This document shows positions 61,570 through 63,589 of a DNA stretch of 64,000 nt, one piece after another. The stretch's first letter is position 1. Every line of letters begins with the position of its first letter. The stretch spans positions 186,001 through 250,000 of the forward strand of contig NZ_CANMQQ010000003.1 in the NCBI RefSeq assembly GCF_947500045.1, written 5' to 3'. This DNA comes from an uncultured Ruegeria sp. GTDB lineage: Bacteria > Pseudomonadota > Alphaproteobacteria > Rhodobacterales > Rhodobacteraceae. A model generated the notes under the pieces. The model saw only the letters and a program-made list of their open reading frames with translations, had not been told where the DNA came from and ran no database searches. A program made the position numbers and the translations under genes.

Positions 61570-61676
61570 GGCCAATCCCTCATGAGTGCTTTGCGCGCGG
61601 GTTATTCGATTGTGGGCGATGTTGCAACGGTCAGGCTTGACGCGGGCTGCCATCGTGATACGCAAGGCGCATCGGC

Positions 61677-61753
61677 GGGCCTGTAGCTCAATTGGTTAGA
61701 GCAGAGCGCTCATAACGCTTTGGTTGGGGGTTCGAGTCCCTCCGGGCCTACCA
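61677..61753 (+). tRNA. tRNA-Ile2 (anticodon CAU, probably lysidine-modified); target of an integration event
   Basis: A 77-base cloverleaf with acceptor GGGCCTG/CGGGCCT, encoded CCA, and anticodon loop CTCATAA (CAU). The body 'GAGCAGAGCGCTCATAACGC' resembles the AUA-reading tRNA-Ile2 of bacteria more than initiator or elongator tRNA-Met; TilS modification is needed for Ile identity and is not seen in sequence. Its last 16 bases are repeated exactly at 62252-62267. Confidence 0.9.
61738..61753 (+). repeat. attL-like direct repeat (inside tRNA 3' end)
   Basis: First copy of the 16-base repeat; forms part of the T arm and acceptor of tRNA-Ile, which stays intact. Confidence 0.85.
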
Positions 61754-61943
61754 TAATTTAACATATTCAATTGCTTACACGGCGACTTTAATGTTAAATT
61801 TTGGCTAACCGCCTAAGTAGTATGGGTTAAGCAAGTCGAGCTACATTGATGAGCTTAGTCCAATTCCAATTTCGTTGTCATTCTTCCATGACGATCTCCG
61901 AGCTATTTTCTATCTAAGATGGATAATTAGCGTGACGTTTATT

Positions 61944-62064
61944 CTTGAGGTTGCATCTCAAGACTTATGGTGGTTACTGAGACTGTCAGCCGTGTTTCCA
62001 AGGTGTGAACCTTGAACTACACGCAGAGGCCCCCGTGGTATGCTTCTCAGGCCGACTACGGGGG
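61944..62064 (+). ncRNA. candidate structured RNA with three consecutive hairpins in the insert
   Basis: Three stems follow each other: CTTGAG/CTCAAG (61944-61962), CAAGG/CCTTG (61999-62014), and a 10-bp stem CCCCCGTGGT/ACTACGGGGG with one G-U pair (62030-62064). The last is not followed by T, so it is not a plain terminator. Strand of transcription is unknown; I give + because a small reading frame follows on that strand. No known RNA family was recognised. Confidence 0.35.
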
Positions 62065-62111
62065 TTCATTCCAACAAATGACCTACGCACACTCCACATA
62101 GGGGTGCTAAT

Positions 62112-62399
62112 ATGACAAGCGGTAACGCCGTCAAATCGAAACACAATCGTGAATTTGTGCAATTGGGGTTAGCCAGACTAAAGCCGCATTTACTGACATT
62201 TAAAGCAAAGTTAGCCAAGTTATCGCGTTGTAATAAAACACATTTTTTTGCCCCTCCGGGCCTACCAAATCACCGCCCGATGACGATATCCGCACAAAGT
62301 CCGCCCATCTTTTCGCTGCTGCCCAGCCGAAGGATGCCGCCGTGCACGCGCGCAATGTCGGCGACAATCGCAAGACCCAGACCAACTCCGCTGCCCTGA
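62112..62399 (+). CDS. possible small insert-borne reading frame, fused to host sequence
   Basis: A 95-codon frame with a good ribosome binding site (AGGGG, 7 bases before the ATG). Codons 1-46 lie in the insert and encode a basic peptide ('MTSGNAVKSKHNREFVQLG'); the rest crosses the right repeat and runs antisense over the kinase gene, so the natural end is probably lost. The ribosome binding site can pair with upstream GCAC-CTC (62087-62107), which would hide it. No family recognised. Confidence 0.3.
   Translation: MTSGNAVKSKHNREFVQLGLARLKPHLLTFKAKLAKLSRCNKTHFFAPPGLPNHRPMTISAQSPPIFSLLPSRRMPPCTRAMSATIARPRPTPLP
62252..62267 (+). repeat. attR-like direct repeat
   Basis: Second exact copy of the tRNA-Ile 3' end. 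It ends 2 bases before the kinase stop codon. Confidence 0.85.
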
Positions 62400-63589
62400 T
62401 TCTGGTTTCGAGCCGGGTCAAGGCGCGTGAAGGGTTTGACCGCTTCGGTGCGCTGTTCGGCGGGGATACCTGGGCCGTCATCTTCGACCCGAATGCGGAG
62501 TGATTTTGGTGTCAATGACAGGCTGACCTCAGCCCGCGAACCATAGCGAATCGCGTTGCCGATTAGGTTCTCGACCGCCCTGCGTATCGCCGTCGGACGC
62601 AGCATCGCGGTTCCTTGTCCTTCGACCGAAACCAGTTCGACCTTCTGACCTGCACGCTGTGCATCATCGATAATCTGGCTTAGCCATATTTCAGGCTCTA
62701 CCACCTCGGGTGAGCTTTCCGCCGTTCCCCGCGCAAAGTCCAAAAACGCATCCAGCAGCGATTGCATCTCGTCCACATCCTGCAACAGCGGGGCTGCCTC
62801 TTCTTCCGGTAGCAAAGCAAGACCCAATTTAAGCCGTGTCAAAGGCGTCCTCAGGTCGTGGCTGACACCTGACAACATCAAAGTGCGCTGTTCGATCTGC
62901 CGCTCGATTCGGGAGCGCATGTCGACAAAAGCATTGCCCGCTGCGCGCACCTCAATAGCGCCGCCAGGTGAGTATGGCACCACGCGTCCACGACCAAACG
63001 CCTGCGCCGCATCCGCAAGGCGCGTAATCGGTCGTAGTTGATTGCGCATATAAAGAAACGAGATCGTGGTAATCAGAGCCGCAAAGAAAACCATCGTTAC
63101 GATAAGCTGATGTGGCGCAGTCGGCGACAGGCGTCGCCGATCGAAACTCAGCTCCAGCGTGCCTAGATCGGTTGCCAAATACAGCCGCACCTCCTGCCCA
63201 TTCGGCAGCGCAATGTCCTCCATTTGGGGCAGCAGCGTGCGCATTTCGGCGTCAACTTGCGGGGCGATAAAATCATACCACCGGCGCTTGCCAACCTGCG
63301 GCTCTTGATTCACAGGTAAAAATCGAGCTGTCATATTCAGCGCCGCAAGGTCTGACCGTGCAGCCGCCAACGCCTGTTGCTGTGTCTCGGTCCCTTCCAT
63401 TACACCTAGCACCAGCGTCACCTCGCGTGCGGCTGTGCGGGTCATCTGGGCGGTAACCTCTTCAAGGTGCTTTTGCAGAAATGCAATCGCAACAACCAAA
63501 AGCACTACGATAACCGGCAATGCCAGAATAAGTGCGGCACGCGCATAAAGGCTGCGCGGCATATAGAGTTTGAGCCATCGGGTCGACAT
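62270..63589 (-). CDS. EnvZ-like sensor histidine kinase
   Basis: A 439-residue two-component kinase. Transmembrane helix 1 at about 16-38 and helix 2 at about 162-181 enclose a periplasmic sensor of about 120 residues. HAMP at about 182-235 ('NQLRPITRLADAAQAFGRG'). The phospho-accepting His is H244 in 'GVSHDLRTPLTRLKL'; the ATPase has N-box 'ENLIGNAIRYG', G1 'DDGPGIP' and G2 'GVGLGLAIV'. Organisation matches EnvZ. No response regulator lies in the window; the stop codon sits 2 bases from the att-like repeat. Confidence 0.93.
   Translation of the reverse strand: MSTRWLKLYMPRSLYARAALILALPVIVVLLVVAIAFLQKHLEEVTAQMTRTAAREVTLVLGVMEGTETQQQALAAARSDLAALNMTARFLPVNQEPQVGKRRWYDFIAPQVDAEMRTLLPQMEDIALPNGQEVRLYLATDLGTLELSFDRRRLSPTAPHQLIVTMVFFAALITTISFLYMRNQLRPITRLADAAQAFGRGRVVPYSPGGAIEVRAAGNAFVDMRSRIERQIEQRTLMLSGVSHDLRTPLTRLKLGLALLPEEEAAPLLQDVDEMQSLLDAFLDFARGTAESSPEVVEPEIWLSQIIDDAQRAGQKVELVSVEGQGTAMLRPTAIRRAVENLIGNAIRYGSRAEVSLSLTPKSLRIRVEDDGPGIPAEQRTEAVKPFTRLDPARNQNQGSGVGLGLAIVADIARVHGGILRLGSSEKMGGLCADIVIGR

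Follow-up and report, generated by a model that had tools for sequence, protein, structure and literature searches.

The window, a 64,000-bp stretch of a contig from an uncultured Ruegeria sp., contains a CAT-anticodon tRNA gene, reported by ARAGORN as tRNA-Met(CAT), which we take, from features of its sequence, to be tRNA-Ile2 of the lysidine type. The last 16 nucleotides of this gene, CCCTCCGGGCCTACCA, recur exactly 514 nucleotides downstream (start to start), and the segment enclosed by the two copies would have a circular form of 514 bp. The outline of the locus is as follows:

61677..61753, plus strand: CAT-anticodon tRNA gene, its 3' end being the integration target
61738..61753, plus strand: attL core, first copy of the 16-bp direct repeat, equal to the tRNA 3' end and single-copy in the empty sites of relatives
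61754..62251, no strand assigned: 498-bp insert (putative mini-element) between the att cores
62252..62267, plus strand: attR core, second, exact copy of the 16-bp direct repeat

The initial annotation of this DNA had described an exactly duplicated tRNA end, repeated beyond chance, around 498 AT-rich bases without an integrase, and all of this holds: the copies at 61738-61753 and 62252-62267 are identical, an exact 16-base match within about 1 kb has a chance expectation of about 2e-7 (by arithmetic, with equal base frequencies), GC content is 42% at 61750-62249 versus 53-60% in the segments of the window that do not overlap the insert, and tblastn with three integrases finds nothing in the insert at E 1. 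The GTTAGCC repeats that it had proposed as arm-type sites are also present, as TTGGCTAAC at 61801 and GTTAGCCAA at 62210, together with an additional, previously unlisted copy, GGTTAGCCA, at 62167. The inverted repeat at the left end of the insert, given there as 10 bp, is actually 14 nt long at 93% (61751-61764 and 61791-61804).

The open reading frames of at least 30 aa that lie wholly inside the insert are 36-58 aa long, and the whole insert, treated as RNA, folds better than its shuffles (z -4.7). Rfam has no match in 61600-62400 beyond the tRNA itself at E up to 10 (two sub-threshold matches lie over the tRNA), and blastn finds no match of the insert DNA among 50,697 phage records or among 72,556 plasmid records.

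Distribution of the insert and related elements

Each of the 54 genus genomes searched, that of the window included, matches the tRNA, the neighbouring kinase gene, or both. The tRNA-kinase gap was measured in 49 of the 53 other genomes (the four left out are G397; G409 and G430, which have the two on separate contigs; and G438, which is interrupted by a contig end; the tRNA of G421 aligned in part only). The gap is at most 60 bp at 18 of these 49 sites and at most 12 bp at 11 of them, and in the empty junctions of G408, G424, G423, G437, G399 and G439 the tRNA runs directly into the sequence that follows the second copy in the window. The 498-bp segment is an insertion into an otherwise contiguous site, and the empty, single-copy sites in relatives which the initial annotation had named as support for this are indeed found in the genus. 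The site is a variable one (L035-L088), with gaps of more than 60 bp in 31 of 49 genomes, up to 16.9 kb, mostly without an exact second att core.

An exact second 16-bp copy is present at three of the 49 sites. The nearest relative, G412, has a 499-bp insert between exact repeats at the same tRNA. Its insert and that of the window are identical at 288 of 459 aligned positions (63%; shuffle mean 60%), with an alignment score of 257 versus a maximum of 169 among 200 shuffles, and the flanks of the two loci are identical at 86/88 (intergenic), 633/740 and 491/558 positions, and the tRNA at 77/77. The two inserts are thus related yet far more diverged than their flanks, which fits separate arrivals or replacement; judged by these identities, the insert is not simply inherited. 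What had been named as evidence against insertion, equal spacing and a conserved insert throughout the close relatives, was not observed.

The other two exact repeats enclose larger segments. In G436 (L038, G436:C1:1246900-1250400) the insert is 2239 bp long, with a 368-aa ORF and no intact integrase found; a possible decayed integrase C-terminus is weakly indicated (best tblastn E 0.044), and this insert may be a true remnant, in contrast to the element of the window. The element of G415 (L043) measures 10.3 kb, its ORFs look phage-like, and its integrase is 47% identical to that of the viral record L367 (see below). In place of GGTTAGCCA-type arms it has GGTTCGTCA repeats, including an inverted pair on the left; the combination of a different integrase with different arm repeats suggests that arms change with the integrase.

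Similar elements recur at other sites, as the initial annotation had suggested might be seen for a mobile family. A pattern built from TGTCAGCCGTG and GCTTCTCAGGCC, two motifs common to the inserts of the window and G412, and blind to att features, matches three of the 54 genus genomes (window, G412 and G423), in each case inside an element flanked by tRNA-end repeats; the backward control matches none. In G423 the element lies at a tRNA-Glu gene, and the tRNA corresponding to that of the window has an empty site. Applied to genome contigs, the same pattern gave at least 119 stretches; filtering by stem and reading kept, among the matches listed, L210 (which is G412) and L235, a contig of a Mangrovicoccus MAG, that is, of another genus, with the element again at tRNA-Glu. 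With both att core copies included, the elements measure 530 bp (window), 531 bp (G412), 435 bp (G423) and 525 bp (L235).

Three sister elements at tRNA-Glu carry one gene each. That of G436 (1426 bp) encodes a Pfam DUF2806 protein, which reaches TIGR03899 only below the cut-off of that model and has no match in PADLOC; that of G429 (1092 bp) encodes a Trypsin_2 domain; and that of G420 (1081 bp) encodes a 287-aa protein with no Pfam family at E 0.01. The protease-like cargo has a best PADLOC E of 9e-5, and a defence annotation of the sister cargo was set aside. The second att core copy is imperfect in G420 and G429, and tblastn with the three integrases reveals no integrase trace in any of the seven elements. 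An arm-pair pattern gives five matches in the 54 genomes, all of them in elements (window, G423, G420, G429 and G436); with 19 matches in the backward control the count is not enriched, and the weight rests on all five lying in elements.

The tRNA-Glu sites outside the eight genomes with long spacers were covered by the arm-pair pattern and, where fetched, by the covariance model of the structured core (described below), which within the genus was run over fetched loci only. Eight of the ten genus loci whose spacer was inspected (L242-L251) have 70-72 nt between tandem tRNA-Glu genes, with GGTTAGCC-type sites, some of them degenerate; the other two spacers are 56 and 24 nt, and the spacer of L235 is similar to the long ones. 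The 70-72-nt spacer is possibly the left end of an even smaller element.

The family-level samples contain mostly one genome per genus, and the other known carriers are therefore absent from them. There the insert DNA matches one of 394 genomes, its own; the core model, under stricter filters, matches three of 394, namely its own, G373 (24.5 bits) and G103 (19.3 bits), the last two as scores alone; and a pattern of arm plus tRNA-Glu att core matches none of 394. An arm pair followed by TACCA matched two of 388, its own and G065, and the latter, when read, was not judged an element. L235:287-800 has no match in phage records; L235:1-800 matches 34 plasmid records, and the 20 of 34 rows listed all fall within query positions 39-302, which are tRNA-Glu copies, no place covering 80% of the query. 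Among viral contigs, the core pattern matched 28 and a less strict version matched 15, with some overlap. Model scores were obtained for the 15 and for 26 of the 28, the highest being 14.5 bits, which was taken as chance; the remaining two, L094 and L102, were judged by their weak stem only. The best reading of these sequences would be an integrase-less family of 0.4-1.4 kb, found at two tRNA genes, with the same kind of ends and with either this core or a single protein gene inside, in a cassette-like manner.

Attachment sites and candidate helper phages

The ends of the insert carry the following sites:

61765..61777, plus strand: IHF-like site ATTCAATTGCTTA, 8 of 9 consensus positions, 11 bp inside the left att core
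61802..61810, minus strand: left arm-type site TGGCTAACC, a perfect GGTTAGCCA on the minus strand, 49 bp from the att core
62167..62175, plus strand: distal right arm-type site GGTTAGCCA, 85 bp from the att core (95 and 95 bp in the phages, 75-98 bp in the other elements)
62209..62217, plus strand: proximal right arm-type site AGTTAGCCA, 43 bp from the att core (43 and 44 bp in the phages, 44-45 bp in five other elements)

IHF-like sites were scored against a nine-position consensus. On the left, all seven elements have such a site, with 8 or 9 of the 9 positions, 11-13 bp inside the att core; on the right, in reverse orientation, five of the seven have 8 or 9 positions, L235 has 7, and the window has 6, which is weak. 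The scores sum to 57 on the left and 54 on the right, versus means of 44.1 and 43.5 after Markov resampling, and none of 1000 resamplings reaches either sum. A right arm lies 75-98 bp from the att core in all seven elements and a proximal one at 43-45 bp in six; the single right arm of G412 is at the 75-98 bp range. Two same-strand right arms with at most one mismatch are found in six of seven elements, versus 33 of 20000 random windows, a figure that is an overestimate because the pool included three of the elements and arm-bearing spacers. Left arms are present in three of the seven (window, G412 and L235), the other four having none within 110 bp of the att core. The distances of the distal right arms increase in steps of roughly a helical turn (75/76, 85 and 95-98 bp), which suggests selection on working sites; the weak right IHF-like site of the window and the single right arm of G412 may mean that individual copies are decaying. 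The layout is that of the att sites of heterobivalent tyrosine integrases, with a core repeat at a tRNA 3' end and arm-type and IHF-like sites on both sides, the right IHF-like site of the window being weak, and the ends of the insert, as read from these sites, have the anatomy of a phage attP.

Viral records were scanned for two arms followed by CTACCA. Seven records matched, and two of these have an element-like arrangement: L367 (IMGVR_UViG_3300036046_000010, a 45.2-kb record) and L370 (IMGVR_UViG_2772190751_000003, a 44.2-kb record); L364, L365, L366, L368 and L369 were rejected on reading, and arm-plus-core patterns gave no match in viral records. In L367, arms lie on both sides of the att core CCCTCCGGACCTACCA, which has one mismatch to that of the window, and an integrase gene (578-1684, PF00589) has its 3' end about 90 bp from this core. 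In L370, the right arms are 95 and 44 bp from the att core CCTGCCGGGCCTACCA, which is the other genus allele of this tRNA end, and an integrase 55% identical to that of L367 is found near the other end of the record, at its start. An IHF-like sequence can be seen by eye beside the att core in both. Both records encode a phage RNA polymerase (phrog_414), a DNA polymerase, a helicase and a head-tail adaptor, and a terminase was seen in L370. The temperate phages behind these two records, of ~44 kb, are candidates for the helper.

Relatives of these integrases were sought in hosts and viruses. Homologues of the L370 integrase (E 1e-20) occur in seven of the 54 genus genomes and in none of the six Ruegeria carriers, the L235 MAG lying outside this search; in these six, present mobility would need an incoming phage. 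No resident helper was seen in the seven carrier genomes, in that no exact GTTAGCC cluster is found at loci covering 70 of 71 integrase-family matches (G423:C3:121097 excluded). There are 42 viral relatives of the L370 integrase, and in six of the 19 scanned for arms, the integrase gene is directly followed by GGCTAAC and GTTAGCC as a pair with a distance of 18 bp (L393, the record of L367, and L397, L402, L404, L406 and L407); no such pair follows the gene at the 11 homologue loci of the genus, where gene ends are approximate. Going by the five records other than L393, the arm motif may extend more widely than the host genus. The contigs L402 and L406 contain a tRNA-Arg gene. A protein search with the L367 integrase found 2831 relatives, and several of the 120 listed are on 43-45-kb contigs.

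The structured core

The middle of the insert contains a segment conserved in the elements of the window, G412, G423 and L235:

61980..62072, plus strand as listed, both strands folding: conserved structured core, probably a non-coding RNA (covariance model; fold z -3.5)
61984..61994, plus strand: invariant motif TGTCAGCCGTG, in 4 of 4 core sequences
62028..62067, plus strand: hairpin with apical GCTTCTCAGGCC (CTTCTCAGGCC invariant in 4 of 4) and a covarying outer stem

The four sequences align over 105 columns, 37 of which are invariant. A leave-one-out covariance model made from the other three finds the core of the window with 40 bits (E 2.8e-9), as the sole match in the 64 kb at E up to 1. 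In the stem around the apical motif, four pairs are changed on both sides, a number reached by 98 of 500 shuffles; the covariation score is 0.382, against at most 0.137 when the partners are slid, and is reached by 4 of 500 shuffles, in an alignment of four sequences that was fitted to the model and so leans towards it. Fold z-scores of the four cores are -3.5, -4.2, -2.2 and -2.7 on the plus strand and -2.0, -4.6, -3.0 and -4.5 on the minus strand, so that folding leaves the RNA strand undecided. There is no reading frame common to the four, with only short matches among 53 frames, and the idea of a conserved ORF was dropped, as the long open frame of L235 (133 codons from stop to stop) is absent from the other three. 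G423 has one terminator-like site, which is on the strand of the plus core; that of the window lies on the minus strand. On this evidence the core is probably a non-coding RNA of ~95 nt, which would be transcribed from one strand or the other.

An alternative that is compatible with mobility of the element takes the core to be a DNA site for proteins of the helper phage, such as a packaging site, a replication origin or a single-strand hairpin, by which a circle would be replicated or packaged. Stable folding of both strands would agree with this, as would promoter-like matches at the level of shuffles (0, 2, 1 and 0 in the four elements); moreover, a gene-less element would need such a site, and a packaging motif is said, in the sections of PMC11389934 available to us, to be required for the mobilisation of PICMI. 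Helpers and sister elements alike would, however, be expected to contain a site for packaging or for replication, and the core model finds nothing above chance in either helper-phage record (14.2 bits and E 0.37 at best) and no match in the protein-carrying sisters L272-L274 at E up to 1. The core, being absent from both, behaves as cargo and not as a packaging or replication site, and we consider the DNA-site explanation improbable, preferring the RNA.

What such an RNA might do is a matter of analogy with satellites, and our favoured guess is interference with phages. An antisense action was considered and set aside: neither of the conserved motifs is matched by an exact complement in the phage records, and one of them has two sites with one mismatch. 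The two phage records (L375-L380) contain the word TGTCAGCCG, which belongs to the core's invariant motif, seven times on one strand and not at all on the other, versus an order-2 expectation of 1.2; this enrichment was dropped, as 35 of 1939 words of the same composition occur at least five times.

Nature of the element and comparison with known systems

In our judgement the 498-bp insert is likely to be a non-autonomous integrative mini-element, made of an attP and one small structured cargo, most likely the ~95-nt RNA, and served by a phage integrase in trans; we found no gene in it. Site-specific recombination would have placed such an element in the 3' end of the CAT-anticodon tRNA gene and rebuilt the tRNA end; the tyrosine integrase would be supplied in trans by a temperate phage with matching arm sites; and spread between cells would proceed by transduction, gene transfer agent or transformation. 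We infer that an integrase of the L367/L370 type acts on the elements, and that these are excised and transferred from cell to cell. In the sequences compared, the att anatomy is common to the elements and the integrase-encoding phage records, the elements recur at other tRNA sites and in another genus, and the structured core is conserved.

The initial annotation had left the choice between a deletion remnant and a non-autonomous element moved in trans. Two observations favour the second: one minimal layout with one core is shared between two tRNA genes and between two genera, and there are phage records that combine an integrase with a matching arrangement of attP. A live rival, if an unlikely one, is still the first, in which prophages of the L367/L370 kind or related islands lost their interior and left attL, attR and a scrap of DNA as an immobile, CIME-like ghost. 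The ends of the elements do match phage ends, and larger elements sit at the same tRNA, one with an integrase (G415) and one with a possible decayed integrase end (G436, 2.2 kb). Yet this would require independent deletions to spare one and the same ~95-nt core, along with the ends, at two tRNA genes and in two genera, and that core is not found in the two helper-phage records; the lack of any integrase trace in seven elements and the helical stepping of the distal arms likewise speak against mere remnants. Partial copies of tRNA 3' ends are common debris at tRNA genes, but the view that ordinary intergenic DNA here has a copy of the tRNA end that arose by chance or gene conversion is contradicted by the contiguous single-copy sites of relatives, and by the larger inserts between the same repeats, the phage-type att anatomy and the recurrence elsewhere, and is highly improbable.

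The proposed mini-element can be compared with several known systems. The cis-mobilizable elements (CIMEs), as presented in the accessible part of PMC5704250, arise by decay of an ICE or IME and keep attL and attR while integration and transfer genes are lost. The att part of that definition describes the element of the window, in which attL and attR are retained, but this element is 0.5 kb long, with one tiny cargo and with ends of phage type rather than ICE type. Since its minimal unit is found again at a second tRNA gene and in a second genus, it has the look of a unit of its own and not of a local ghost. Neither in the window nor in G412 does it have an integrase-bearing element as neighbour; in both, the second copy is directly followed by the next gene.

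Phage satellites, as portrayed in the portions of PMC10803314 and PMC11389934 at hand, are likewise small integrated elements of marine bacteria, and dependence on a helper phage is what is proposed here. PICMI keeps genes for an integrase, an AlpA regulator and a primase (PMC10803314, in the same portion). Satellites of the PICI, PICMI and P4-like kinds are expected to have their own integrase, whereas tblastn finds none in the element of the window, and no PICMI-type gene was found in it. The temperate phages of L367 and L370 have the same GGTTAGCCA right arms at the same spacing, but are 44-45-kb records with an integrase and phage genes.

MITEs, of ~300 nt and without protein genes, and CALIN cassettes, without an integrase, are both moved in trans according to the accessible text of PMC11389934, and so would be the element of the window, by the enzyme of another element. 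MITEs rely on transposases and CALIN cassettes on attC (same text), whereas here a phage-type attP is found in tRNA genes; moreover, the direct repeats are tRNA 3' ends, and the inverted repeats found are either arm sites inside the element or confined to one end, unlike in MITEs. In the satellite and hitcher accounts of PMC11389934 and PMC10803314, in their accessible portions, we found neither an integrated satellite that lacks an integrase nor a mini-element of the integrase type; tycheposons and VEIMEs are mentioned there by name. A description of this element family was not noticed among the open-licence papers searched either, including the portions of PMC11389934, PMC10803314, PMC5704250 and PMC8528129 to which we had access.

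More tentatively, we put forward as a possibility, though not a probable one, that the mini-element represents the smallest kind of phage satellite yet: a phage-type attP with one structured RNA gene, ~0.5 kb in all, which would use the integrase of a temperate phage in trans and provide an RNA-based host trait, for example phage interference. It might then be one cargo type of a wider system of 'attP cassettes', in which phage integrases swap single genes (serine protease-like, DUF2806 or membrane protein) or an RNA at tRNA genes.

If the mini-element reading is true, phage integrases would sustain a population of mini-elements with one gene or none, the integrase-based equivalent of MITEs and integron cassettes, and much smaller than the islands and satellites that searches usually target. 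They would also offer a mechanism for the turnover of single genes at the tRNA genes of marine bacteria, and the conserved, uncharacterised RNA-like core would be placed in the context of phage-dependent mobility, where its function would be directly testable.
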